Origin: an uncultured Pseudomonadota bacterium
GTDB lineage: Bacteria; Myxococcota_A; Bradymonadia; Bradymonadales; Bradymonadaceae
Assembly: GCA_950059285.1 (NCBI GenBank)
Contig: CATLTV010000019.1
Span: 1 to 44,211, forward strand
DNA: 44,211 nt
Direction: 5' to 3'
Shown: positions 3,390 to 44,211 of the stretch, piece by piece
How the letters are laid out: the number at the start of each line of letters is the position of its first letter
Numbering within the stretch: the first letter of the stretch is position 1
Translations under genes and position numbers: made by a program
Notes under the pieces: model-generated
The model's input: the letters and a program-made list of their open reading frames with translations, nothing else
Database searches by the model: none
Told to the model about the DNA's origin: nothing

Positions 3390-3542
3390 ATGAGCTCCTG
3401 TGGTCGTAATACCATGGGTCTACGATTCACCACCATGGATCGTAAGCAATTGTCATCAAAGAGAAAACCCCAGGGGCGACACCCCTGGGGTTTTCTCTTT
3501 GATGACAATTACTTAAATAAACTCTTCACCTCATTAATGTAG
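3390..3542 (+). CDS. Doubtful 50-codon ORF with a perfect ribosome-binding site running through a hairpin
   Basis: AAAAAAGGAGG at 3374-3384 sits 6 nt before an ATG at 3390, one of the strongest Shine-Dalgarno sequences in the window. The reading frame runs straight through the palindrome at 3448-3510 and ends inside the 3' end of the opposite-strand gene. The encoded peptide (MSSCGRNTMGL...) resembles nothing I know. It may be a leader-like peptide whose translation would unwind the hairpin, a decayed gene start, or chance. Confidence 0.2.
   Translation: MSSCGRNTMGLRFTTMDRKQLSSKRKPQGRHPWGFLFDDNYLNKLFTSLM
3448..3510. terminator. Palindrome 1: 29-bp perfect stem between convergent genes
   Basis: Arms 3448-3476 and 3482-3510 are perfectly complementary with a 5-nt loop (CGACA). 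The core is CCCCAGGGG/CCCCTGGGG. It is flanked by AAAGAGAAAA/TTTTCTCTTT, so a U-rich tract follows the core in both directions, and then by ten more paired bases. It lies between the SDR gene and the convergent gene that stops at 3509; its right end overlaps that stop codon. A bidirectional intrinsic terminator fits, but the outer ten base pairs go beyond what one needs. Confidence 0.85.
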
Positions 3543-12774: not shown

Positions 12775-14337
12775 ATGAACGCTCTGGAATCATTGCGACA
12801 ACGCATCCTCTCATCCAAAACACCCAAGCAACCCGAGCAGGCCATTGCTCAGGCCATGGATGAAGCCCCTGACCTTGTCGCGCCTCTTATCCTTTGCGCC
12901 GAGCATCCCGACTGGATTGCCGCCTACTACACCCATCAAAAACTCTCATGGAAAACACTCGATCAGGCTCACCCACTCCACGCTCTGATCATGGCATCAA
13001 GCCAACATCCATCCCATGAAGATGCCCTTGATCAAGCGCTCTCAAAAAATACAACCTCCACACAAGCACTCGATGCGCTCGCACGTAGCCTCACGCCATG
13101 GGAACACAAGCTCTTCAAAAAAAGCATCGCCAACAAGGAGACACAACTGTCTACCTGCGCGGTGCTTGCCATGGCAGACCCGGAACGTCTCCTCCAGTGG
13201 AGCTTCAATGGACCTCGCGAGGAGTCCGACGTGATCAACGCCCTGCTCGCGCTGATGCACTTTGATGAGCTTGACACCGAGCTACTGGTGGATGTCATTG
13301 ATGCCCTTCGACAGGAGAGTGATGGCAACAAACCAAACAGCTCGCTCTCACGGCTTCAATCCCTGCTCGCAGCACATGACCCGCTCCTCTTTGCGCGCGG
13401 CGCCCTGGAAGGCGAGTTTGAGCTCAACTGGACAGAACGCTCTGAATGGGTCGCCGATGTGTTGACCCTCCATCACGAGACGTCATGGCTTGAGACGCTC
13501 GCCATTTTGGAGCTCTCCAACGCACGTCAAGCGTTTGGTTTTGCCTCCATCCTCGCCATTTGTGCAGCGACCGCACACAGCGTACTTGCTCTGAACGACA
13601 ACCCAGAAAAAGCCGAGCAACATGCTGAACTTCTTGATCTTTTGCGTGCACAAAAGACATGGGAACCCCTGGCAACCTCGCTCAACCTTGAATTCCCACT
13701 CGCTGTCGCCGATGAGGATCTCACCCCATTGCTCGTAGAAATTGCCATTCACGAACGCCTCGTACAGGCTCATATCACCTCACCTGGTGTCATGGGGCTC
13801 CCACTGAGCGCCACGCTTGACGAAGCGCTCGATATTGAGCAAGCAAAACAACTCCTTAAAGAGGCTCAGGACCTCATCAAACCCGACGATGAGACACTCT
13901 GCGTCCTGGTACGCACCATCTGCGATCTACGCAACCTCCTGGCCGATGAAAACCCCACCATTCAAAACCACACCTCCGAACTTCTCGCTTTGCTTGAACC
14001 GCTCACCACACACTCACAGCGTGCCATCGCGATGAGCGCAAAGCGTACACTCGCACAACAAGAACATTACAACGCCCTGCTCGCACCCGAACCCGAGAGC
14101 TTCCTTGATGCCGCCATTGCTGGTGTCGATGTCCCCGGGGCACAAACACTCCTGGCAAAACTCGCTGCGCGTGAAGGTGTCGCTGCACTCTGGGCTCTCA
14201 ATGAGCTCACCGAGCTCACTCTGGATGAATCACTTCCACACATTGCGCTCGCTTACAGTGAGTGCCACATTCCACGAGCACCCTATATCAAGCAACTCAT
14301 GGAAGAACTCGTTCAGGAAGAGACGTTGATTTTGTAA
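12775..14337 (+). CDS. Large alpha-helical protein of unknown function
   Basis: A 520-residue soluble protein, Leu/Ala/Glu-rich throughout and predicted almost wholly helical, with no signal peptide or TM segment. Successive helix pairs (for example DEAPDLVAPLILCAEHPDWIAAY and SDVINALLALMHFDELD) suggest a HEAT-like or other alpha-solenoid scaffold, but repeats are too divergent to delimit by eye. It is last in the plus-strand operon, 56 nt after the lipid kinase. Its TAA stop is the first base of a 73-nt palindrome. The role may be structural or protein-binding; this is inference from composition only. Confidence 0.65.
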   Translation: MNALESLRQRILSSKTPKQPEQAIAQAMDEAPDLVAPLILCAEHPDWIAAYYTHQKLSWKTLDQAHPLHALIMASSQHPSHEDALDQALSKNTTSTQALDALARSLTPWEHKLFKKSIANKETQLSTCAVLAMADPERLLQWSFNGPREESDVINALLALMHFDELDTELLVDVIDALRQESDGNKPNSSLSRLQSLLAAHDPLLFARGALEGEFELNWTERSEWVADVLTLHHETSWLETLAILELSNARQAFGFASILAICAATAHSVLALNDNPEKAEQHAELLDLLRAQKTWEPLATSLNLEFPLAVADEDLTPLLVEIAIHERLVQAHITSPGVMGLPLSATLDEALDIEQAKQLLKEAQDLIKPDDETLCVLVRTICDLRNLLADENPTIQNHTSELLALLEPLTTHSQRAIAMSAKRTLAQQEHYNALLAPEPESFLDAAIAGVDVPGAQTLLAKLAAREGVAALWALNELTELTLDESLPHIALAYSECHIPRAPYIKQLMEELVQEETLIL

Positions 14338-14409
14338 TCGCCAAGAAAAGAGAAAGGGGGGCGAGGTTTGCTGCGCAAACCTCGCCCCCCTTTCTCTTTT
14401 CTTGGCGAT
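14337..14409. terminator. Palindrome 3: 35-bp perfect stem exactly filling a convergent gap
   Basis: Arms 14337-14371 and 14375-14409 pair without mismatch around a 3-nt TGC loop. The left arm starts at the last base of the TAA stop (14335-14337) and the right arm ends directly beside the opposite TAG stop (14410-14412). The core is GGGGGGCGAGGTTTGC, flanked by AAGAAAAGAGAAA/TTTCTCTTTTCTT. It shares core and loop with palindrome 11 at 40926. Confidence 0.9.
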
Positions 14410-15306: not shown

Positions 15307-15591
15307 CTAACGCACCTGTTCTCTGATACGGCAACACCGCATTGATTGTGTGTGTAACTACCGAGTTTTTCCTCCATTCAACACTTACTTAGGCGCATCA
15401 TTCGTACATTTATTCAATCAAGCGGGCGTTTTTATGGGGCGGCTGCTGATATATCAGCAGCCGCCCCATAAAAACGCCCGCTTGATGTGCATTTCCAGTA
15501 TTGAACTGTTATAAGTAATAACGCCTCGCTTTCACTGAAGTTTGCACCGTCTATCCCTGTGCCTCCCTGTTGTTTTTACGAGTATTGTATC
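15307..15591. other. Divergent intergenic region, 285 nt, containing a 70-nt palindrome
   Basis: Separates the barrel gene (minus) and the esterase gene (plus), so promoters for both should be here. The palindrome at 15417-15486 splits it into an upstream half for each gene (about 110 and 105 nt). I see no clear -35/-10 pair. Confidence 0.4.
15417..15486. repeat. Palindrome 4: 70-nt perfect palindrome between divergent genes
   Basis: Every base from 15417 to 15451 pairs with 15452-15486, giving 35-bp arms with no spacer. The core is GGGGCGGCTGCTGAT, with an ATAAAAA/TTTTTAT tract and an outer AAGCGGGCG arm. It lies upstream of both flanking genes rather than downstream, so it is not an ordinary gene-end terminator. 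It could insulate the two promoters, terminate an unseen small RNA, or act as a DNA cruciform or protein site. Confidence 0.85.
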
Positions 15592-20601: not shown

Positions 20602-20667
20602 AGTAGTCAGTCAAGATAAGGGGTGTGGCAACTAAAGTTGCCACACCCCTTATCTTGACTGACTACT
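20602..20667. terminator. Palindrome 6: 31/32-bp perfect stem after the YbjN-like gene
   Basis: Arms from 20602 and 20667 pair perfectly to a 4-nt TAAA turn. The core is AAGGGGTGTGGCAAC, with an outer AGTAGTCAGTCAAGAT arm. It begins 8 nt after the stop of the gene at 20676 and lies upstream of the next gene on the same strand. Confidence 0.87.
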
Positions 20668-25308: not shown

Positions 25309-28300
25309 GTGGCGCAGGAAAAAATCCTCGTTGTCGACGCGGATGAAAAAAGTCAAAAGTTGCTTGAAGTGAGCTTCAAAAAAGAGGGCTATCAAGTCCT
25401 GCTCACCGAGTCCATGAAAGACGCGATCAAGACCATCGGTACCGAAAACCCCGACCTGATCATCTGCGACTCTGCGCTCCCCGATGGCGATGGCTTCACC
25501 CTCTGCCAGCAGCTCAAACTTAACCCCAAGTTTGCCACCATCCCCTTTATCTTCCTCACCGAAGATGTAGAGCTCTCTCGTAAGATGAAGGCCTTTGAAC
25601 TTGGTGCCGCCGAATACCTCCAGAAGCCCATCTTCATCAAGGATGTCACCTCACGCGTCAAACTCCAGCTCCAGGAGCTCAACAAATCAAAGCTCCACGA
25701 CGCTCAGGATGATGAACAAATCACTGGCTCACTTGAAGATATTACCGTCATCGACCTCCTCCAGACCATCGAGTCCAAGGACCGCAGCGGCATCCTTGAA
25801 CTTGAACGCGAAGCTGGCATCAACGCCGAGGTCTCCTTTGAAAAGGGTAACATCCTTGATGCACAGTGCGGCCCTCTGCGCGGTGAAGAAGCTCTCTATC
25901 GCCTGATGCTATGGCCCAAAGGCACCTTCAAGCTCGAATACAAGGAGATCCACAGCGCAGATCACATCGAGAAGGACTCCGCAGCTCTCCTCATCGAAGG
26001 GATGCGTCGCTTCGAACGCTGGAATGACATGGTCCAGACCCTCCCTCACCTGAGCCGAAAATTCAGAGCGGTCTCCGAGGCCAAGGACCAACCCCTCCCC
26101 CTTGAAGTCCAGCACATCGTGGACCTGTTTGAACAGGCCCAGACACTACGACATGCCGTCGACCATAGCCCTGTGGATGACCTCACCACGCTTCGCATCA
26201 TTCGCAAGCTCCTTGATGAGACACTCCTTGAAGATGTCACCACAAGCGAAGACTCACTCCGACAGAGCGCACAACACACAAACCTTGCAGCATGGCTCTC
26301 AGAACGCACCGTGCACACCCCTGCCGCTGCCACATCACGACCACGCAGACAGACCATGCGTGCTCGTCGCGGTGACGCACGCCTCTTTGATACCACGCCT
26401 GGCTTCAAAAGCGTCCCTGGCCTGAACGCAGACTCCCTCGTGGAGAGCGATGAGGATATCCAAACCCTCGCAAGAACCATCGAAGAGATCTCATCCCCTC
26501 AGCAGGATCACGACTCTCTTGATGAAAACACACAGTCCGAATTTGGCCTGGATAACGACCCATCCCCCGAGCTTGAAGAGGGCCTCCCCCCTGAAGAAGT
26601 TGAGCTCGCCCAGAATGCAGAAGGCGATGATGTCACACACTGGCGATTCCACTGGGACAAGGAAGCTGGTCAGGCCGTCGCAACACCACGTGAGCGCCCC
26701 GAAGATCCATTTGCGCTCGAAGACCTTGAACAGGATCTCCAGCGCATTGAACAAATGCGCCGCGAAGAAGAAGCTCGCCGCATCGCTGCCGAACGCGCCT
26801 TCGCCGAAGAAAATCAACCTCCTGTCAAAACCGTCGAGCCTCAAGACACCACCACACAGACAGAGGAAGACGCACAGGAACCTCAAGAACCTCGCGAAAT
26901 CACCAAGGAGCTCCACCGCGAGAGCGTCCTCGCCGAGGTCGAGCGCAGAAAGAAAGCAGAAGAAGCCAAAAACGATCCTCGTCAGGGCATCGAAGACCTG
27001 ATCGAAAAAGCCGAATCAGGACGTAAAAAAGACACCACAGAATCATTTGCCGAGAAGGTCGCCAAGGACTACGAGCAAGAACCTTACACCTCCCGTCAAC
27101 GCACCGATCAGTTCATCCCTGTCCTTGATGTCCCCGATCAGGATGACATCGAAACGGCTGAAATCCCACGTCAGGATGATGCTCAGGACATCGCCGATGC
27201 ATCTGATGCACCGTCTCAAAACCTTGTCCCCCTTGGCGCTCCCGAAGACACACAGGAAGAAGAACCCACCGTATCTGAAGAGGAAGCCGAAGCATTCAAG
27301 GCCAAGACAACCTCGCCAAAAGATGCCTCCATCAGCGAAGATGAAGACACCGCTGAACAGGAACGCGAAGCACAGGAACCCCCTGCTGACACAAATGACT
27401 CGGCCGCCGACACGTCAGACTCTCAAGATGAGCCCGACGTAGAGGAGCCACACGACGAAGATGAGGACGTTGAGCTTGAAGAAATTCAGGTTGAGGACCC
27501 TGCCGGTCTGTCCCAAACCTCTCAGGCTGAGGACATCATCGCGCACCGCACACCTCGCAACCAGGAGATCGTACACGCCGAGGTCGAGCTCAAAAAAGGC
27601 TCTGAACACACCGATGATGACGCTGATAGCGAGGATGAAGAGGAAGATGCAATCGCCACAGCGATCGCTGATACCTCTGATGATGACGCACCAGAAACCA
27701 AGGACGACGTCGCCGACGCGGATGAAGCTGAAACTCAAAAAGAACCTGATGCCAGTAGCGCACAGGACTCCGATGAGGACGAAAAAGACGACGAGCCCAA
27801 AGAACCTGAAGACACCAAGGAAACCACCGAGGACGAGCAGAAAGAAGAGGACGCAGAAGAGGAAGGATACCTCCTTGATGCCCCCCTGTTTGCCGATGAA
27901 GAAGAAGGATTTAACAAGGCTGGCCTCTTTGCCGCTGTCCTTGTCATCGCTGCCGTCATCGTCGTGGTCTTCATGTTCATGGGTGATGACAAACCCAAGG
28001 AACCTGTCAAAAACCCCACAGTGGCAACCACGGTTGATGCCACCACGGACACCACCGTGGCTCAAAAAGAACCCGATGCTACCCCCGATCTGAGCGACGC
28101 CATCGCACAAGCCAGCGAGATCGTGGACGCCGCACAGGACATGCCCGCCACGGACATGGCCAGCGCCGCACTCTCCGCCGAACTTGCTCCAGACGCAGGT
28201 CAGGACACCGCATCCCACGCACACCAACAAACAGCATCCATGGTCCTTGCACTCAAAGGTCAGGACCCTGCGGCTGTCGAAGATCCCATCAAAGCACTTG

Positions 28301-28776
28301 ACACATTGCCTCCAGAAGAGACAGCTCCCGAGGAGACAACAACCACAACAGCTCCCGTAGAAACCACCAAACCTGACACCTCCACAAAGGTCGAGGACAA
28401 GGCCCCTGCAAAAGAAAAGACCATTGAAGAACGCACCAAGGAAATCGCGAGCCTGATCCGCAGAGAGCGTTACAAAAACGCGCTCAAACCTGCACGTCAA
28501 CTCGTTAAGGATGACCCCAAGAGCGGTCAGGCTGCTGCCCTCCTCGGCAGCGCGGAGCTCAACGGTGCCAATGATGCTGGCTCCGCGATCAAAAACTTTG
28601 AACGCGCTCAGTCTCTGGGCTACCGCTCATCCAGCATGTACCTTGACATGGCCACGGCCTACTTCATGACCAACAACCGCGCCAAAGCCAAGTCGGTCTA
28701 CCAGAAGTTCCTCAAGGCATACCCCAAACACAAGATGGCCAAAGAGGTCGAATCCATCCTCAACAACCAGTTCTAA
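25309..28776 (+). CDS. Receiver-PATAN(DUF4388) protein with long acidic linker, one TM segment and C-terminal TPR
   Basis: A 1155-residue modular protein. Residues 1-125 are a response-regulator receiver with phosphoacceptor Asp54 (IICDSALPDGDGF), Thr84 and Lys106 (QKP). Residues about 138-235 are a DUF4388/PATAN domain (ITGSLEDITVIDLLQTIESKDRSGILEL). Then a very long Asp/Glu-rich, probably disordered region with coiled-coil-like parts (about 240-866), one transmembrane helix (about 871-893, LFAAVLVIAAVIVVVFMF), a Thr/Pro/Asp-rich stretch, and a C-terminal TPR-like domain (about 1040-1155, ALKPARQLVKDDPKSGQAAALL). The receiver would be cytoplasmic and the TPR periplasmic. No kinase partner is adjacent; the CheA at 37047 is a possible one. 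GTG start with AGGAG 5 nt upstream. The family name for the full-length architecture is unknown to me. Confidence 0.8.
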   Translation: MAQEKILVVDADEKSQKLLEVSFKKEGYQVLLTESMKDAIKTIGTENPDLIICDSALPDGDGFTLCQQLKLNPKFATIPFIFLTEDVELSRKMKAFELGAAEYLQKPIFIKDVTSRVKLQLQELNKSKLHDAQDDEQITGSLEDITVIDLLQTIESKDRSGILELEREAGINAEVSFEKGNILDAQCGPLRGEEALYRLMLWPKGTFKLEYKEIHSADHIEKDSAALLIEGMRRFERWNDMVQTLPHLSRKFRAVSEAKDQPLPLEVQHIVDLFEQAQTLRHAVDHSPVDDLTTLRIIRKLLDETLLEDVTTSEDSLRQSAQHTNLAAWLSERTVHTPAAATSRPRRQTMRARRGDARLFDTTPGFKSVPGLNADSLVESDEDIQTLARTIEEISSPQQDHDSLDENTQSEFGLDNDPSPELEEGLPPEEVELAQNAEGDDVTHWRFHWDKEAGQAVATPRERPEDPFALEDLEQDLQRIEQMRREEEARRIAAERAFAEENQPPVKTVEPQDTTTQTEEDAQEPQEPREITKELHRESVLAEVERRKKAEEAKNDPRQGIEDLIEKAESGRKKDTTESFAEKVAKDYEQEPYTSRQRTDQFIPVLDVPDQDDIETAEIPRQDDAQDIADASDAPSQNLVPLGAPEDTQEEEPTVSEEEAEAFKAKTTSPKDASISEDEDTAEQEREAQEPPADTNDSAADTSDSQDEPDVEEPHDEDEDVELEEIQVEDPAGLSQTSQAEDIIAHRTPRNQEIVHAEVELKKGSEHTDDDADSEDEEEDAIATAIADTSDDDAPETKDDVADADEAETQKEPDASSAQDSDEDEKDDEPKEPEDTKETTEDEQKEEDAEEEGYLLDAPLFADEEEGFNKAGLFAAVLVIAAVIVVVFMFMGDDKPKEPVKNPTVATTVDATTDTTVAQKEPDATPDLSDAIAQASEIVDAAQDMPATDMASAALSAELAPDAGQDTASHAHQQTASMVLALKGQDPAAVEDPIKALDTLPPEETAPEETTTTTAPVETTKPDTSTKVEDKAPAKEKTIEERTKEIASLIRRERYKNALKPARQLVKDDPKSGQAAALLGSAELNGANDAGSAIKNFERAQSLGYRSSSMYLDMATAYFMTNNRAKAKSVYQKFLKAYPKHKMAKEVESILNNQF

Positions 28777-33785: not shown

Positions 33786-34331
33786 TTGAGCCACGACGAA
33801 AAGGACAACTCTGACGACTCGCTTGAAGAGTTCATTACATCGATTTACTCGTCGCCCTCCACATCGTCCCTCAACGAGGAGGACGACGCCTCACGAGAAG
33901 TCGTCGCGTTCTTGCACTTCCAACTTGGCGATGACAACTACGCCATTCGTGGGGAACATATTCAGGAGATCATATTCTCTGAACAGATCACACCACTGCC
34001 TGGCGCACCCGATTATATTCGAGGTGTTGTCGTGCACAGACGACATGTCATCGGTGTGCTCGATCTTTCCACCTGGCTCAAACGCCCTGGTGTGGTGAAC
34101 TGCGCAGAGCGTCTTATCCTTGTGGAGCATGGCGATATGACCGCTGGCATTTGTGCGGGCTCCTTGACTCAAATCATCAACATCCCCTTGCAACAACTCA
34201 ATACCGCGACTGAACAACAGGCCAAACGACAGACGTCACCTTATATTGATGCTGTCATCACCATGGAGGATCGCTCCCTGCTTATCCTGAACACGTTCAG
34301 AATTCTTGAAGACGCTGCGGTTCAACATTAA
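33786..34331 (+). CDS. cheW: CheW-type chemosensory coupling protein
   Basis: A 181-residue protein. About 40 acidic N-terminal residues precede a CheW domain: FLHFQLGDDNYAIRGEHIQEII, LPGAPDYIRGVVVHRRHVIGVLDL, and SLLILNTFRILE at the end. CheW couples chemoreceptors to the CheA kinase. The N-terminal extension makes it longer than the usual 150-160 residues. TTG start at 33786 with GAAGGAG 5 nt upstream. First gene of the chemosensory cluster. A 27-bp palindrome begins 2 nt after its stop, separating it from the remaining genes. Confidence 0.92.
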   Translation: MSHDEKDNSDDSLEEFITSIYSSPSTSSLNEEDDASREVVAFLHFQLGDDNYAIRGEHIQEIIFSEQITPLPGAPDYIRGVVVHRRHVIGVLDLSTWLKRPGVVNCAERLILVEHGDMTAGICAGSLTQIINIPLQQLNTATEQQAKRQTSPYIDAVITMEDRSLLILNTFRILEDAAVQH

Positions 34332-34333
34332 CA

Positions 34334-34399
34334 GCAAGAGGAGGCGACCTGGGCGAGCACCTGCTTCCGCAAGTGCTCGCCCAGGTCGCCTCCTCTTGC
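34334..34399. terminator. Palindrome 9: 27-bp stem inside the chemosensory cluster
   Basis: Arms 34334-34360 and 34373-34399 pair perfectly; one C-A mismatch and three more pairs lead to a TTCC loop. The core is GGCGACCTGGGCGAGCAC, flanked by GCAAGAG/CTCTTGC. It starts 2 nt after the CheW stop and ends 24 nt before the next start, so it probably reduces expression of the CheW-like gene relative to CheW. Confidence 0.85.
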
Positions 34400-34423
34400 G
34401 CCTGCATCATACAACAGCACCCA

Positions 34424-34840
34424 ATGCCCTACCCTCAGTTCAAACTCCTGTGGTTTCAGATCGGCTCAAGTTCATACGCAGCTCCTGCGCACTACTTCTC
34501 GTCGATCACACCTGTGCACGCCCTCCCGCACGACGCGCATGTGTATGAGGCATACAAGCTTTTGCTCGTTGACAGAACCCCACAACGCATCAAGAAATCA
34601 AAACAATTCGCAAAGATACCCACACTGGGAGGCAACCTCATCTGGGTTGGACTTGGCGATCGTGTTGAGCTGCTCACGTGCCCAAAAGAGCAGCTTCTGG
34701 CGCTGCCTCCCTGGGTCGCAGCCAATACCCCTTCCTATCTTCTGCCTGCCTGCCTGCTTGATGCACAACCCTTTACACACCAGATTACATGGCTGATTGA
34801 CATCAAAAACTTGGCAAATCTCTTGCTATCCAGCGCATAA
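34424..34840 (+). CDS. Divergent CheW-like protein
   Basis: A 138-residue protein. Its start, FKLLWFQIGSSSYAAPAHYFSSI, and its end, HQITWLIDIKNLANLLL, match the edges of a CheW fold (FxIGxxxYxxP... and ...WLIDI..L). The middle (about 40-110) is less like CheW and carries GNLIWVGLGDRVELLTCP. It may be a second coupling protein or a degenerate one. The ATG at 34424 has no good Shine-Dalgarno, and only 24 nt separate it from the palindrome. Another start further upstream would lie inside the palindrome. 72 nt later the MCP gene begins. Confidence 0.6.
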   Translation: MPYPQFKLLWFQIGSSSYAAPAHYFSSITPVHALPHDAHVYEAYKLLLVDRTPQRIKKSKQFAKIPTLGGNLIWVGLGDRVELLTCPKEQLLALPPWVAANTPSYLLPACLLDAQPFTHQITWLIDIKNLANLLLSSA

Positions 34841-34871
34841 AAGCTAGTGTAGCTCATCACGCCCTGAACGG

Positions 34872-34900
34872 TTGAACTTCAATTTTCACCACGCTTTAAT
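34872..34900 (+). promoter_or_regulatory. Promoter candidate for the MCP-CheA-kinase part of the cluster
   Basis: TTGAAC (34872-34877), a 17-nt spacer, then TTTAAT (34895-34900), each close to the sigma70 consensus. Transcription would start near 34907, only about 6 nt before the MCP start codon at 34913, with no Shine-Dalgarno, so the transcript could be leaderless or nearly so. Confidence 0.5.
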
Positions 34901-34912
34901 ACGGCCCAGATC

Positions 34913-37021
34913 ATGTTTAAAACCCTGCAAGCCAAGACGCTCCTCCCTGTTGTACTGCTCGCTATTTTTGCGGTGCTCATGACCATCCCTCCAGTGCAAC
35001 AAAGCCTGAATATTACGCAGGATAGCTGGATTCTTGCGCTCACCCTTGGCGCAGCAGGTATTCTTGCCGTGATCCTTCAAAGTCGCTCACTTGGCGAGCT
35101 TCATAACCTTCGCGAGCGCATGCAGCGCACCGCCGATCATGTGCCCATTGGAGAACCCTCTCTGGCGCACTCCGAGGAGCTCCACGACATCTGGCAAGCA
35201 GCACACACGTTGCAACAGCGTCTCGAGCAACAACGATCCTTGCAGTCTCGCAGTGAGCGTAACATCGAACGCCTCAGCATCGCCATTGAGCACATGTGCC
35301 AGGGCCTGGACGCCACTGAAAAGCTTGATGTCAAACTTGATGATCCTGTCTTCAAAGCACTTCTCTCAAGTCTTCAAGATATGAACTCTCAGCTCATTCA
35401 AACGCGCTCATTGATTGAACATATGAAACGTGGCGAGCTTGGCGCTGAAGACTTCAAGAAAAAACACCTTGATATTAAAAGACTTACAGAATCAGACATC
35501 CCCATCCCACGTGAGGCAGATGGTCTCCTTGAAGACCTCCTTGAGCTTCAGAACGCGCTCCGCCGACTCACGCTCCAAACACACCTTGTGGCCAGTGATA
35601 AGCTTGAAAGCCCACTGCTCAATGAAACCGTGGTTGGCGATCTGGGCGATGCCTACGCATCAATGATTGATAACCTGCGCATTCTTGGACATCGTGCACA
35701 ACAAATCGCCCGTGGTGATCTGAGCATCAAGTCAGACCTTGATGGAAGTCTCCATAACGCCTTCAACTCCATGGTCGAAGGACTACGTGGCATCGTGTCA
35801 CAGATCACACAAACGGCGGTGCGTATCTCCACCAGCGCAGAAGAAATCCTCGCTGTCCTCCACGAACAGGAACTCAGCGCATCTCACCAGGCAAGCGGTG
35901 TTGAAGAGACACAACGCACCATGGAAACCTTGCTCTCCTCGGCCAAGAAAATCGCCGAAAGCGCTCAAACCGTGTTCAAATCCGCCGAACGTACACAGGC
36001 CAATAACCGTATCATCTCCGATCGCGCCAGCGAGCTTAAAAGTCACACCGAACGCATCGCAGAAATCCTGGAATCCATCAAGGAAATCGCCGATCGCAGC
36101 GACTTGCTCGCGCTCAACGCAAGCCTTGAGGGACTGCGCGCAGGTGAGGCAGGAAAAGGGTTTACACTTGTCGCAAACGAAATGAGACGCCTCGCTGAGA
36201 ATATCAAAGGTAGCGTCGGCGACATCAAAGATCTCCTTGGAAACATTAGGCAATCTGCGCTATCCAACATTATGGCAATCGAAGAAGGCTCCCGTTTAAG
36301 TGAACGCACCACCGATTCGGCGCTCAAGATTACGCTCATCACACAGCAGCAGCAGTCAGGCACCGAGCAAGTCACACAATCGATGGAAGAACTCTCCCAC
36401 CTGATCAATCAGGGGCTCGCAGGCACGCGACAGGTCACCACCGCAGCAAGCGAACTGGCTGGCCTCTCGGACGATATGCGTGGATTGGTAGACACCTTCA
36501 ACATCCACGAACCCACACCCTCCACCCCACAAAACTGGTCACAACCCACCACGACCAACAAACCGATGGCGTCCTCACGCATGCACATGCGCCCCTCGCA
36601 TTACACCCCCGCACAGGGAATCTCCACCAGTCCTCGCCAATCATCAAGCCCCCGACAGGCCGTGCCACAACACAAGGAGGCCGAACCTGCAAACAAACCT
36701 GCACCCAAAAATAACACGCAGGAAAAAAGCGCGCTTGAAGCCACACAGCTTGCCATTCACACACAGCTCCCCAACATCTCTGGCAAGGAACAGCTCAACG
36801 CAACCATGCGCTTTGTTGGTTATGGTGATACAAAACCCAAGACAAAGGACACCTCCCCCACCCTTGATATCAGTCAGATGAGCTCCGAACTCCTCGCCTC
36901 GGACTACGAAGATATGGACTCACTGTTTCACGAGCTTGACGCCTCTCCCAACCCGTCCAAACCTGGCCTGCATGTCACCAGTGAACCAGACACCTCTGAA
37001 TTTCCCACTGACGAAGATTAA
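34913..37021 (+). CDS. Methyl-accepting chemotaxis protein with almost no periplasmic domain
   Basis: A 702-residue chemoreceptor. TM1 (about 8-24) and TM2 (about 39-55) are separated by only about 14 residues, so there is no periplasmic sensor domain. A HAMP-like stretch and a helical linker follow; around residues 300-520 is the MCP signalling domain with its hairpin tip near 394-415 (RSDLLALNASLEGLRAGEAGKGF), matching the canonical LLALNAxxExxRAGExGxGF. The residues from about 530 to 702 are a Pro/Ser-rich, probably disordered tail; a C-terminal CheR-docking pentapeptide is not seen. It likely forms an array with the CheW proteins and CheA of this cluster. The stimulus may come from the cytoplasm or a partner membrane protein. 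Confidence 0.9.
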   Translation: MFKTLQAKTLLPVVLLAIFAVLMTIPPVQQSLNITQDSWILALTLGAAGILAVILQSRSLGELHNLRERMQRTADHVPIGEPSLAHSEELHDIWQAAHTLQQRLEQQRSLQSRSERNIERLSIAIEHMCQGLDATEKLDVKLDDPVFKALLSSLQDMNSQLIQTRSLIEHMKRGELGAEDFKKKHLDIKRLTESDIPIPREADGLLEDLLELQNALRRLTLQTHLVASDKLESPLLNETVVGDLGDAYASMIDNLRILGHRAQQIARGDLSIKSDLDGSLHNAFNSMVEGLRGIVSQITQTAVRISTSAEEILAVLHEQELSASHQASGVEETQRTMETLLSSAKKIAESAQTVFKSAERTQANNRIISDRASELKSHTERIAEILESIKEIADRSDLLALNASLEGLRAGEAGKGFTLVANEMRRLAENIKGSVGDIKDLLGNIRQSALSNIMAIEEGSRLSERTTDSALKITLITQQQQSGTEQVTQSMEELSHLINQGLAGTRQVTTAASELAGLSDDMRGLVDTFNIHEPTPSTPQNWSQPTTTNKPMASSRMHMRPSHYTPAQGISTSPRQSSSPRQAVPQHKEAEPANKPAPKNNTQEKSALEATQLAIHTQLPNISGKEQLNATMRFVGYGDTKPKTKDTSPTLDISQMSSELLASDYEDMDSLFHELDASPNPSKPGLHVTSEPDTSEFPTDED

Positions 37022-37046
37022 ACCCGCTTGGCCCTAAGGTACGCTC

Positions 37047-39434
37047 ATGAGCATTGGCGCGCTGATCGAAAAATTTAGAGCTGTCGCACTTGATCGCATT
37101 GAGGCCATGAATCTGGCCATGATCAACCTCGAACATGATCCTCAGGATGCACAATCACAGGAAGAAATCCTGAGAGAAATTCATACATTGAAGGGTGAAG
37201 CAAAGATGATGGGGTTCGCCGATGTGAACCTTGTGGCACACCAGACAGAGCACTTGCTCATTCTCGCAAGCAAACATGACTGGCTCATTCCCCACATCGC
37301 CAGAGATCTCATCTTTGAGGGCTTTGATCTGATCCGTACACTGATCACCAAACAAGCAGGCTCCAATGATACACCTGTCGACCTCTCAAGTTACGTGGAT
37401 CAGGTTCAAAATTCACTGACACTTATTGAGACATCCAGCATCGCTGTCGATGATCAAAACTACACACCTCCCGCACCACAAGACGACAGACCCAAACCTG
37501 CTGAGCCCAAAGAACCCGTGATAGCAGCTGCCTCGGTTGAACCGTCGACAACCACCTCCACGGGCGCCTCTGATGCATCTCAACTGTCCACATCCCTGAA
37601 CGACTCTGGCCAACATGCTCGCATCACTGCCTCACTTGGGGAAGACGCTGAAACAACCACTGTCAAACCAGGAGGAAACCTCTCAAGCATGCTCCGACTT
37701 CAGTCGGACAACTCAATTCGCATTAACCTCGACAAGCTTGAGCGCCTGAGCAACTTCGCCAGCGAAGTGCACCTGATGAGCCGCCGTGCAGCCTATGATC
37801 TTGAACAATTAACCGAAATTCGCCAGCGCCTCAAATCCTGGATGCGCAACTCAGGAGAGCTTCTCCCAAAGAGTCACCTCGCAAGTCTACGTGAACTTGG
37901 CCATAATCTTGATGCGATCTCCTCAAAACTCGTTGAGGAGACTCACCTCGTCAGTTTGCGCTCGGATACCCTTGATGAGCAGGTCCGTAGCCTGCGCCAT
38001 ATTCCTCTGGCACAGGTGTTTAGCCACTACCCTCGCGCCGTCAGAGATCTCGCGCGCTCGCAGGGCAAGCGCATCAAGTTAAGCATGGATTTTGGCAACA
38101 TTGAAGTCGATCGCAGCATCCTCTCTGCGCTGTCTGATCCGCTCCTTCACCTGGTGCGCAATGCCGTGGATCATGGACTTGAGCCCACACACGAGCGCAC
38201 ACGCAAGGGCAAACCTGAAGATGGAGAGCTGATCCTTGAAGCCGAGCTTGTTGGCGACAGTCTCCGTGTCACGCTAAGTGATGACGGCCGCGGCCTTGAT
38301 CCCGAGATGCTCAAGCGCAAAGCCATTGAGCGTGGTGTCATCACATCCGAGCTCGCCAATCAGCTTGATGATCAACGCGCCATGGCATTGATCTTTGAAC
38401 CTGGCTTCTCCACACGTCAGGAAGTGACCGACGGGAGCGGACGAGGCATTGGCATGGACATCGTGCTCAGACAGATCACAATGCTTGGTGGTGTGGTGGA
38501 GTTTGAAAGCGAGCTTGATCAAGGAACCACATTCACAATCATCATCCCTCTCTCATCGGCGGTCATTGAGGTTCTACTGATCAAGGTTGGGGAAGACACG
38601 TTTGCCATTCATGCCAAGGATGTCGAACGCGTCACCACATGCAAACGACGCGAACTTGCCATGGTGCACGACACGCCTTATCTCAAGGAAGCTCAAGGAT
38701 TAACACCCGTGTGTGCATGGCATGGCCTGTTGTCCGTCAATAAAAAAGAGGACGTCCCCTCCCCTGAAAACCTTGCGCATCACGACAACCTGACGCTGCT
38801 GCTCATTGAAAAAGGAAACACACGCATCGCAGCACATGTAGATCATGTGCTTGGCGAACGCGACGCCTTGAACCGACCCCTTGGTGAATTCTTACGTGGC
38901 GTACGCCTGTGCAGAGGGATAGCGCTCACAGGCGCGGGTGAGGTGATCCCATTGCTGAATGTCGTCGAACTGCTCAACCGATCGCTACAAGGTCACAGCA
39001 AACGAAAGCAGGCCAAACCCAAGGCTCGACAGTCCTGGAGTACACTTCAACTGTCGAGTATTCCAACAACGCGTACAATTCTGGTGGCCGAAGACTCAGA
39101 TGTGACGAGAACTCTGATCTCTGGCATCTTGCGCAACCTCGGCTATCGCGTTCTTGAAGCAGGCGATGGCGCAATTGCATGGGAGATGCTGCACTCATAT
39201 CGTGTAGACCTTGTCATGACAGATATGCAAATGCCCAATCTTGACGGACTTGGCTTGATAAAACGCATAAGAAAAGATAATGATTTTAATGCCCTCCCAA
39301 TTATAGTTCTCTCTACGTTGGGTGCACAACGTGATAAAGAGAACGCAATGCACCTGGGAGCGGATGCTTACCTCGTAAAACTGGACTTCCGAGAAAAAGA
39401 TCTTGTTGAACTGATAGGTAGACATCTGTCCTGA
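37047..39434 (+). CDS. cheA: CheA-type histidine kinase with C-terminal receiver
   Basis: A 795-residue hybrid CheA. Order: HPt domain with His46 (EIHTLKGEAKMMGF); a Pro/Ser/Thr-rich linker (about 125-210) with no recognisable P2 domain; dimerisation domain (about 225-300); HATPase domain with LVRNAVDHGLEPTHER (N box), DDGRGLD and GRGIGMDIV; a CheW-like domain (about 500-650); and a receiver at about 670-795 with phosphoacceptor Asp726 (VMTDMQMPNLDG). Receiver-bearing CheAs (as FrzE of Myxococcus) typically serve non-flagellar outputs. The receiver may act as a phosphate sink or relay. ATG at 37047 with AAGG 8 nt upstream, 25 nt after the MCP stop. Followed after 51 nt by the receiver-kinase gene. 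Confidence 0.95.
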   Translation: MSIGALIEKFRAVALDRIEAMNLAMINLEHDPQDAQSQEEILREIHTLKGEAKMMGFADVNLVAHQTEHLLILASKHDWLIPHIARDLIFEGFDLIRTLITKQAGSNDTPVDLSSYVDQVQNSLTLIETSSIAVDDQNYTPPAPQDDRPKPAEPKEPVIAAASVEPSTTTSTGASDASQLSTSLNDSGQHARITASLGEDAETTTVKPGGNLSSMLRLQSDNSIRINLDKLERLSNFASEVHLMSRRAAYDLEQLTEIRQRLKSWMRNSGELLPKSHLASLRELGHNLDAISSKLVEETHLVSLRSDTLDEQVRSLRHIPLAQVFSHYPRAVRDLARSQGKRIKLSMDFGNIEVDRSILSALSDPLLHLVRNAVDHGLEPTHERTRKGKPEDGELILEAELVGDSLRVTLSDDGRGLDPEMLKRKAIERGVITSELANQLDDQRAMALIFEPGFSTRQEVTDGSGRGIGMDIVLRQITMLGGVVEFESELDQGTTFTIIIPLSSAVIEVLLIKVGEDTFAIHAKDVERVTTCKRRELAMVHDTPYLKEAQGLTPVCAWHGLLSVNKKEDVPSPENLAHHDNLTLLLIEKGNTRIAAHVDHVLGERDALNRPLGEFLRGVRLCRGIALTGAGEVIPLLNVVELLNRSLQGHSKRKQAKPKARQSWSTLQLSSIPTTRTILVAEDSDVTRTLISGILRNLGYRVLEAGDGAIAWEMLHSYRVDLVMTDMQMPNLDGLGLIKRIRKDNDFNALPIIVLSTLGAQRDKENAMHLGADAYLVKLDFREKDLVELIGRHLS

Positions 39435-39485
39435 TTTTTATTTCATATAAGACCTGCTATCGGTTTCATCTCAAAGGCTCCTATC

Positions 39486-40907
39486 ATGACTGTAGACAAA
39501 GCTCATCTTCTTGTCGTTGACGACAATGAGCTTAACCGTGACATGCTTTCACGTCGTCTGGAACGCAAAGGCTATACCGTTGATATTGCAGAAGACGGTT
39601 ACAAAGCTCTCGAGCTCATCGATCAAAATACTTATGACCTGATGCTCCTGGATATCATGATGCCTGGAATTTCAGGGATTGATGTTCTGGAACAGCTCCG
39701 CAAAACTTACTCCATTACAGATCTGCCCATCATCATGGCCACTGCCAAAAATGATGGGCAAACCATTGTGCAAACGCTCCAGCTTGGTGCCAACGATTAC
39801 GTCACCAAACCCCTTCAGTTTGCCGAAGTCCTTGCTCGCGTCCAGACACAGCTCAGCATCCGCCAGCAGGCCCAAAGAAGCCAGACGCGCACCTCGGGCT
39901 CGTTCCACAAGCTCGAAGACAATGACTCCCACAAGACCTTTGATACAAAGATCTTTTGCTCAAGCTGCCGCTCTGCATTGCTCCATGATGAGCCCAAATG
40001 CCCCACATGCAACAGCCTCCGCCCACCCGAAGGATGGCCTAGCCGCAGCAACACACTCTATCCTCATCTTGGCACCACCATCGGCGAGCGCTTCTTCCTT
40101 GAGCAGTTCATCGACAAGGGCACAACAGGTAGCGTGTATGCTGCTCGTGACCTCGATCTCAAGCGTATCTTTGCCGCCAAGATCATCTCTCTGGATGGCA
40201 CCGCCATGGGGCTCTCCTCTGAAGAGGTCAAACAGCGCACTCGCCTTGAAGTCGAGGCCATGGTCAGCCTTCAAAACCCCCACGTGGTCAAGATCTACGA
40301 GGTCACGCAGATCTCCGACACCACGTTTGCGCTCGTCATGGACTTTGTCAAAGGTTTGAGCCTTGGCTCCATCCTCAAACGTCTTGGTAGCCTCAAACCC
40401 ACACTCGCCCTGAACATCACACGTCAGGTCGCGCAGGGACTTTATGAAGCACACCAACTCAACATGATTCACTGCGACATCAAGCCTGATAACATCATGC
40501 TCGAAAAGCTTCCTGCGGGCGGCTACTTCGCTCAAATCCTCGACTTTGGCATCGTGCATATCCTCGATAAGCCAATGAACGCGGAAGGATTCTATGGCAC
40601 GCCGCTGTATAGCGCACCTGAACGTATCCGCGAAGACATGGACGTCGACCACCGCGCCGACATCTACTCTCTTGGAGCCATGCTCTACCATATGATCAAG
40701 GGAAGCCCTCCCTACATCGATGACAACATCTACAAGGTCTTTAACCATCACATCCACACGCCGCCCCCCACCATTCAGGGCGCCATCAACGATCCTGCTC
40801 TTGAACAAGCTCTTAACAGGATCATCCAACGCACCATGGCCAAAGACCCAGATCAACGCTTCAACTCCTTGCGCGACCTGATCAAAGAGATCGATGCAAT
40901 CATCTAA
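39486..40907 (+). CDS. Receiver-zinc ribbon-Ser/Thr protein kinase fusion
   Basis: A 473-residue protein. Residues 1-125: receiver with Asp56 (LMLLDIMMPG) and Lys107 (TKP). Residues 157-174: zinc ribbon with Cys157, Cys160, Cys171 and Cys174. Residues about 195-473: Hanks-type kinase with Gly loop GTTGSV (211-216), catalytic Lys231 (FAAKII), Glu254, His328-Cys329-Asp330 (HCDIKPDN, instead of HRD), and Asp352 (DFG). It is the last gene of the chemosensory cluster and the natural acceptor of phosphate from the CheA at 37047, linking histidine-aspartate signalling to Ser/Thr phosphorylation. The HCD motif makes it a non-RD kinase, which usually implies no activation-loop control. AAAGG upstream supports the ATG at 39486. 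Substrate unknown; no TM or sensor at the C-terminus. Confidence 0.93.
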   Translation: MTVDKAHLLVVDDNELNRDMLSRRLERKGYTVDIAEDGYKALELIDQNTYDLMLLDIMMPGISGIDVLEQLRKTYSITDLPIIMATAKNDGQTIVQTLQLGANDYVTKPLQFAEVLARVQTQLSIRQQAQRSQTRTSGSFHKLEDNDSHKTFDTKIFCSSCRSALLHDEPKCPTCNSLRPPEGWPSRSNTLYPHLGTTIGERFFLEQFIDKGTTGSVYAARDLDLKRIFAAKIISLDGTAMGLSSEEVKQRTRLEVEAMVSLQNPHVVKIYEVTQISDTTFALVMDFVKGLSLGSILKRLGSLKPTLALNITRQVAQGLYEAHQLNMIHCDIKPDNIMLEKLPAGGYFAQILDFGIVHILDKPMNAEGFYGTPLYSAPERIREDMDVDHRADIYSLGAMLYHMIKGSPPYIDDNIYKVFNHHIHTPPPTIQGAINDPALEQALNRIIQRTMAKDPDQRFNSLRDLIKEIDAII

Positions 40908-41255
40908 GCAACGGTCAAAAAAGAGAAAAGGGGCGAGGATTTGCTGCGCAAATCCTCGCCCCTTTTGGTGTTCTCTTTCTCACGTAAAATCAATGGCCAT
41001 AAAGTTTTAAATGCTGATAGCCTGTGTTCATAAACATCCAGGCGCATGCTCGAAACCATCTACAGCATCACCATTTTAAGACGCTGAAATGTATCAAGTG
41101 CTCAAGAGAGCAAGAACTCTTAACAAAGATCAAAACCTTGTTTGCTGACTTTGTAGATGGAATGGAATCATAATACAGCGGTTGAACCAACGCACAACGG
41201 CGAGCGAGCTTACGATTGATTTTGAAACACCTGGCAGAGTCTTAGTTTTTCACTC
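40908..41255. other. Convergent intergenic region, 348 nt, containing palindrome 10
   Basis: The hairpin at 40926-40966 lies near its start. The remaining 290 nt hold no gene with a ribosome-binding site or recognisable product. Confidence 0.35.
40926..40966. terminator. Palindrome 10: 19-bp stem after the kinase gene, with interrupted extension
   Basis: Arms 40926-40944 and 40948-40966 pair perfectly around a TGC loop (core GGGGCGAGGATTTGC). Further out, AAGAGA (40921-40926) could pair with TCTCTT, but a 5-nt insert GGTGT on one side breaks the stem. Core and loop match palindrome 3 at 14337; this copy looks like a slightly decayed version. Confidence 0.83.
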
Positions 41256-43024: not shown

Positions 43025-43090
43025 GAAAACGTAAGAAGGTATGCGTAACACTGAGCTTGCTCAGTGTTACGCATACCTTCTTACGTTTTC
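43025..43090. terminator. Palindrome 11: 32-bp perfect stem after the orphan lipoprotein
   Basis: Arms 43025-43056 and 43059-43090 pair without mismatch, with a 2-nt TT turn (31 bp with a CTTG loop). The sequence (core CGTAACACTGAGC, outer GAAAACGTAAGAAGG) is unrelated to the other palindromes. Its last six bases, GTTTTC, are also the first six of the CRISPR-like repeat at 43085. Confidence 0.87.
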
Positions 43091-44132: not shown

Positions 44133-44152
44133 AACTTGTTCTAAAGACAAAC

Positions 44153-44200
44153 AAAAAAATGGCGAGGGCGATGCTGAAGCATCGCCCTCGCCATTTTTTT
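44153..44200 (+). terminator. Palindrome 12: 22-bp stem with long T run at window end
   Basis: Arms 44153-44174 and 44179-44200 pair perfectly around a TGAA loop; core GGCGAGGGCGATGC. The T run continues to 44211 (18 T's in all), giving the most typical intrinsic terminator of the set. It ends the lipoprotein gene at 43302. Confidence 0.93.
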
Positions 44201-44211
44201 TTTTTTTTTTT

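Follow-up and report, generated by a model that had tools for sequence, protein, structure and literature searches.

Gene Content and Signals of the Locus

The window, the whole stretch of 44,211 nucleotides that was analysed, corresponds to contig C19 of an assembly of 6.65 Mb in 441 contigs. On its plus strand lie five genes in the order CheW, degenerate CheW, MCP, CheA-receiver and RSTK, the last encoding a receiver, a zinc ribbon and a Ser/Thr kinase in one protein. This gene content, order and strand had been claimed in an earlier note made from the DNA letters and are confirmed by Pfam domains, the CheW-like nature of the second gene by hhalign and a structural model. The features of the locus are the following.

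33786..34331, plus strand: CheW, an FrzA-like coupling protein (Pfam CheW 7.7e-25), with a TTG start and an AAGGAG ribosome site
34334..34399, unstranded: 31-bp near-perfect hairpin in the cheW/cheW2 intergenic region
34424..34840, plus strand: degenerate second CheW (FrzB-like); the ORF is open from 34373, the first ATG lies at 34424, and relatives keep an ortholog
34913..37021, plus strand: MCP (Pfam MCPsignal 1.9e-24)
37047..39434, plus strand: CheA with a C-terminal receiver (Pfam Hpt, HATPase_c, CheW, Response_reg)
39486..40907, plus strand: RSTK (Pfam Response_reg 4.7e-32, Pkinase 2e-43)
40926..40966, unstranded: 19-bp hairpin 3' of the RSTK stop codon

CheA and RSTK are spaced by 51 nt, and within this gap no terminator-like hairpin is present. 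Since the 19-bp hairpin, which is likely the operon terminator, lies beyond RSTK, we infer that CheA and RSTK are co-transcribed. The hairpin between the two cheW genes is a possible attenuator or terminator.

Many near-perfect hairpins of 20–40 bp with loops of 0–5 nt and differing sequences were seen, mostly in intergenic positions. The long ones of the window lie at 3443-3515, 14337-14409, 15417-15486, 20602-20667, 34334-34399, 43025-43090 and 44149-44204. In the window genome their density is ~1.4 per 10 kb, counted over the window and a further 73 kb from elsewhere in the assembly, vs. ~0.1 in the loci of relatives, and they might represent real terminators, a novel element or an assembly effect. 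Elsewhere in the window (25309-28776) a receiver-DUF4388 protein of 1155 aa is encoded. Its middle part is long and acidic, TPRs lie at the C-terminus, and it apparently has one transmembrane stretch.

Proteins of the Array

The first CheW has an ortholog that is the first gene of the cassette in relatives as well. For the second CheW no Pfam match was obtained. Here, the family profile aligns with the CheW profile in hhalign (93%, E 2.5e-7), and the AlphaFold model (pLDDT 81) has CheW proteins as its best Foldseek matches, the strong PDB matches being solely CheW and CheA-P5 structures. At the level of the profile alignment, an apparent gap of ~18–20 residues lies opposite the TPLPGAP...GVLDL region.

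The MCP, the sole one found in a search of the genome, contains two N-terminal hydrophobic, presumably transmembrane, segments according to hydropathy (residues 10-28 and 37-55) and has no periplasmic sensor domain. Its C-terminal tail is long and Ser/Thr/Pro-rich from ~residue 540 on.

CheA consists of P1 with the phosphorylatable His46, P3, P4, P5 and the C-terminal receiver; no P2 domain was recognised, and the linker is variable and poorly conserved. His46 is conserved across all aligned orthologs. Comparing the window lineage with its relatives vs. the relatives among themselves, conservation is 61% vs. 64% for P1, 60% vs. 70% for P4 and 54% vs. 65% for the receiver, with no special drift of any domain in the window lineage; P1 has diverged no more than in relatives without RSTK. 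A decay of the CheA receiver after a takeover by RSTK was considered and rejected, since the receiver has kept its residues and has diverged to the same degree as the remainder of CheA.

The Response Regulator Kinase RSTK

RSTK starts with a receiver, in which D12, D13, D56 and T86 are invariant in the family alignment, and the Lys of the TKP motif is present in the window protein. Asp56, named in the earlier note, is the phospho-acceptor; this residue and the acids of the pocket are invariant in the RSTK family. A Cys4 zinc ribbon follows (C158, C161, C172, C175; all four invariant across the alignment), and thereafter a Hanks-type Ser/Thr kinase, whose K232, E255, D331, N336, D353 and P378/E379 are likewise invariant and whose catalytic motif reads HCD in place of HRD. 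The AlphaFold model reaches a pLDDT of 84 and matches PknB with a TMt of 0.91. By its domains and motifs, RSTK is a predicted response regulator with a Hanks-type Ser/Thr kinase as effector.

The receivers of RSTK proteins represent a separate clade in the receiver comparison. The first helix of a receiver carries partner specificity. In RSTK it starts with NELNRDMLSRRLERKGY, in the single receivers of the satellite loci described below it reads NEMNRDMLARRLQRKGY and in the receiver of CheA SDVTRTLISGILRNLGY; the RSTK helix resembles that of the single receivers, which belong to HisKA loci, and not that of the CheA receiver. Since the helix carries partner specificity, this argues for a HisKA partner, although the partner may also be CheA.

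In the kinase tree the other family f1 RSTKs form the sister group of the window RSTK (support 87/84); some outgroup kinases in this tree were read on the wrong strand and have long branches, which leaves the RSTK clade unaffected. A recent import of RSTK is not supported, as the tree groups it with the family's own copies. The RSTK of a genome from the sister family (G021) is slightly more identical to the window RSTK (56%) than these copies are, and its receiver groups with the window RSTK receiver (88/83). Scanning the contigs of the window genome with the RSTK kinase returned generic kinases and receivers only.

Conservation of the Array in Related Genomes

Conserved gene order in relatives had been suggested as a check, and the outcome differs for the two parts of the locus. 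Bradymonas sediminis (G008) and Persicimonas caeni (G010) are among the relatives from the same family, which places the window in the Bradymonadales. The array cassette is widespread: 20 other genomes of this family were compared, 16 of them have an ortholog of the window CheA, mostly at ~50% identity, and among these the order CheW, CheW2, MCP, CheA-REC is kept wherever the contig is long enough, with a shortened cassette containing a single CheW in G005. RSTK after CheA, on the contrary, was found in none of the 14 relatives with sequence past CheA (G002, G004, G005, G006, G007, G008, G009, G010, G011, G013, G014, G016, G017, G018; in G019 and G020 the contig stops within CheA). There, the gene downstream of CheA is usually convergent, and in G006 it encodes a co-directional PAS hybrid kinase. 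Among the genomes sampled, the adjacency of CheA and RSTK is confined to the window genome.

The cassette is present in both Bradymonas sediminis, which lacks flagella and shows weak gliding, and Persicimonas caeni, which has flagella as well as gliding. This indicates that the cassette is independent of flagella, and it may control pilus or gliding motility.

Further Chemosensory Genes of the Window Genome

The statement of the earlier note that CheY, CheB and CheR are missing is correct for the operon and does not extend to the genome (C10, C169, C204, C112, C99). The end of contig C10 carries a REC-CheB gene and the first part of a CheR, whose remaining part with TPR lies at the end of C169; this CheB/CheR-TPR pair is conserved and dispersed in relatives. 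Three CheW-domain matches were found in the genome, one of them within a ChpA-like CheA on C204, which is followed by a second CheB. On the same contig (L117:6377-11068) the ChpA-like CheA and an OmpA outer-membrane protein are encoded together in one 1563-aa ORF, which would be a remarkable fusion unless the contig is misassembled there. C112 encodes a CheY-like receiver beside CheX-like genes. At this locus (L118) the receiver and the two CheX-like genes are flanked by two genes of nearly 2000 aa each, with matches to Ser/Thr kinase as well as to CheA/HATPase regions. Furthermore, C99 holds, behind a PAS-HisKA kinase, a single receiver of the satellite type (66% identity), and C47 a membrane HK-REC-REC homologue. 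The refuting case of the earlier note, a CheY encoded elsewhere as sole acceptor, is thus conceivable.

RSTK Loci in Other Genomes

Within the class (57 genomes), full-length RSTK is encoded in G000, G008, G009, G010 (two copies), G021, G024 (three copies) and G025, and four more divergent copies are present in G022. A profile search of 379 genomes of the phylum adds G161 and a weak match in G080, which reads as two adjacent genes. The short contigs of G009, G021 and G025 show part of the RSTK neighbourhood only.

In B. sediminis (G008) and in P. caeni (G010, copy b) RSTK is located ~1–4 kb from a second MCP. In the former, RSTK and an MCP-receiver pair are arranged convergently, and the MCP of this pair shares 45% identity with that of the window; in the latter, RSTK lies near the orthologous pair. 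For P. caeni copy a, an overlap with the end of a single satellite-type receiver was seen. PAS-HisKA-REC-REC kinases are found near RSTK in G008 and near both G010 copies. In G161, a member of another Myxococcota class, the gene directly 5' of RSTK (L188:2456-5731), on the same strand and ~108 nt away, encodes a PAS-HisKA hybrid kinase with a fused ammonium-transporter-like domain. RSTK is found together with HisKA hybrid kinases in more genomes than with CheA, and the older partner of RSTK looks like a kinase of this type, as judged from these neighbourhoods.

The satellite locus comprises a PAS-HisKA-REC-REC kinase, alpha/beta hydrolases, an MCP and a single receiver, and is devoid of CheA. 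It occurs without RSTK in G013 and G016, rearranged in G011 and in parts in G009. As a module without CheA, it is conserved in B. sediminis, P. caeni and relatives (L048, L050, L114, L115, L113), and one guess is an RsbQ-like hydrolase-PAS sensing pair.

Since MCP genes are few in these genomes of 5–8 Mb, a chance neighbourhood of RSTK and an MCP is improbable (~1 in 1000 per genome by estimate). The window locus and the satellite loci are different places and are therefore counted as two independent associations. Judged by gene neighbourhood, RSTK is a family separate from the cassette and recurrently linked to chemoreceptor loci.

Relation to Known Systems

The order CheW, divergent CheW, MCP, CheA-receiver equals that of frzA, frzB, frzCD and frzE of Myxococcus xanthus. 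FrzB lacks ~20 residues (beta4-beta5) relative to CheW (PMC6952110), and the apparent loss of ~18–20 residues in the second CheW of the window is of the size reported (PMC6952110). Shared with Frz are the receiver fused to CheA and a CheR-TPR encoded in the genome. In contrast to the cytoplasmic FrzCD, the MCP has two transmembrane segments; the counterparts of FrzF (CheR-TPR) and FrzG (CheB) lie outside the operon, on C10/C169, and the gene after CheA encodes a response regulator with a Ser/Thr kinase. Since the MCP is membrane-anchored and CheB/CheR are encoded elsewhere, the locus, which resembles Frz in order and domains, is filed as Frz-like and not as Frz. Candidate frz loci in G178 and G200 turned out to be CheR-CheW-MCP-CheA-CheB-REC/HK systems and not frz. 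FrzB has been described as acquired together with A-motility in the Cystobacterineae (PMC4546325); a FrzB-like divergent CheW (window 34424-34840 and its orthologs) is widespread in Bradymonadales, by either an older origin or convergence.

According to the earlier note, no chemosensory system is known to end in a receiver-Hanks kinase fusion. Such a fusion as chemosensory output was not found in the open-access literature, and within this literature the operon with RSTK is on this evidence a new variant. A receiver-bearing kinase in this position, however, has a precedent: in the Che3 system of Rhodospirillum centenum the hybrid CheA3 phosphorylates the receiver on CheS3 (PMC3868531). This alternative-function cascade (CheA3, CheS3, CheY3) likewise attaches a receiver to another kinase; CheS3 is a histidine kinase with measured transfer (PMC3868531), whereas the window kinase is of the Hanks Ser/Thr type and transfer to it is predicted. 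No Ser/Thr kinase is listed in a survey of the receiver-fused outputs that occur close to systems with CheR-TPR (PMC3447774). With the ACF pathways that use multidomain response regulators (PMC3447774), the window genome shares a receiver-fused enzymatic output beside CheA, here 51 nt past it and missing there in relatives, and a CheR-TPR. RSTK resembles the Hanks-type kinases PknB, PknA and Stk1 in kinase fold and catalytic residues, and differs from them in its N-terminal receiver and zinc ribbon, in HCD for HRD (family f1) and by having no transmembrane segment.

Proposed Mechanism and the Phosphoryl Donor

The chances are about even that a Frz-like alternative-function array has captured a phospho-switchable Ser/Thr kinase, which would thereby be functionally tied to chemoreceptor signalling. 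The first four genes represent a conserved array operon of the Frz/ACF type, with adaptation enzymes and stand-alone receivers encoded elsewhere, and RSTK would have been inserted or retained at its end in the window lineage. The state of the receptor would set the autophosphorylation of CheA at His46, and the CheA-fused receiver would take most of the phosphate as a sink. In Frz, FrzE serves its fused receiver, which acts as a sink, and in addition FrzZ and possibly RomR (PMC4546325). Excess phosphate would reach Asp56 of RSTK, either directly or through a branch of HisKA hybrid and receiver. Phosphorylation of Asp56 would then relieve or impose control over the kinase domain, and this switch would alter the Ser/Thr phosphorylation of putative targets. 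That chemosensory input is converted via CheA and RSTK into Ser/Thr phosphorylation, directly, with RSTK as a mobile output module of Bradymonadales that has joined chemoreceptor loci repeatedly, is put forward tentatively, and a direct transfer from CheA to Asp56 is likewise conceivable, if somewhat short of probable.

In the earlier note the gene order was taken to imply transfer from CheA. Part of this interpretation is supported: the tight co-directional gap, the intact domains, the sole MCP and the proximity of RSTK homologues to an MCP in B. sediminis and P. caeni make the link plausible. Since a single CheA was found in B. sediminis, the MCP adjacent to RSTK there probably signals solely via this CheA. 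Gene order in one genome, however, does not imply transfer, and the missing CheA adjacency in relatives, the HisKA neighbours, the first helix and a P1 without unusual divergence count against it. The same observations can be read differently, namely that RSTK is not wired to CheA and serves a HisKA hybrid kinase encoded elsewhere, e.g., the HK-REC-REC homologue on C47; its position would then be a lineage-specific rearrangement and the outputs of the array the CheA-fused and stand-alone receivers. This alternative is less likely than not. In its favour, the G161 copy of RSTK sits directly 3' of a HisKA hybrid kinase, and PAS-HisKA-REC-REC kinases lie near the G008 and both G010 copies; the close spacing of CheA and RSTK within one operon of the window genome speaks against it, and the HisKA loci of B. 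sediminis and P. caeni also hold an MCP, so that the two kinases are not cleanly separated.

The co-location of RSTK with MCP genes in three genomes would also fit a kinase that acts on the array, phosphorylating array proteins such as the Ser/Thr/Pro-rich tail of the MCP as feedback or extra input, while the output of the array or of a HisKA kinase would be sensed by the RSTK receiver. Such a long tail is present in the window MCP, but most orthologous MCPs are extended at the C-terminus in genomes without RSTK, which makes this reading improbable. That the contig joins a CheA and an RSTK which are apart in the chromosome is very improbable. The assembly is fragmented and the OmpA-ChpA ORF on another contig is suspicious, but the composition is unbroken across the junction, the two ORFs are intact and normally spaced, and the window RSTK groups with the family f1 RSTKs.

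Implications

The comparison of the loci suggests that a Frz-like gene set gained RSTK in the window lineage only, and that the array may turn on eukaryote-type protein phosphorylation. The relatives with RSTK beside an MCP, Bradymonas sediminis FA350 and Persicimonas caeni YN101, are cultured predators, which makes the question testable. Should the donor prove to be a HisKA kinase, the locus would be a caution against deriving signalling links from the gene order of one genome. If CheA phosphorylates RSTK, Ser/Thr kinases would join the outputs of chemosensory systems, and the two main phosphorylation systems of bacteria would meet in one short pathway.
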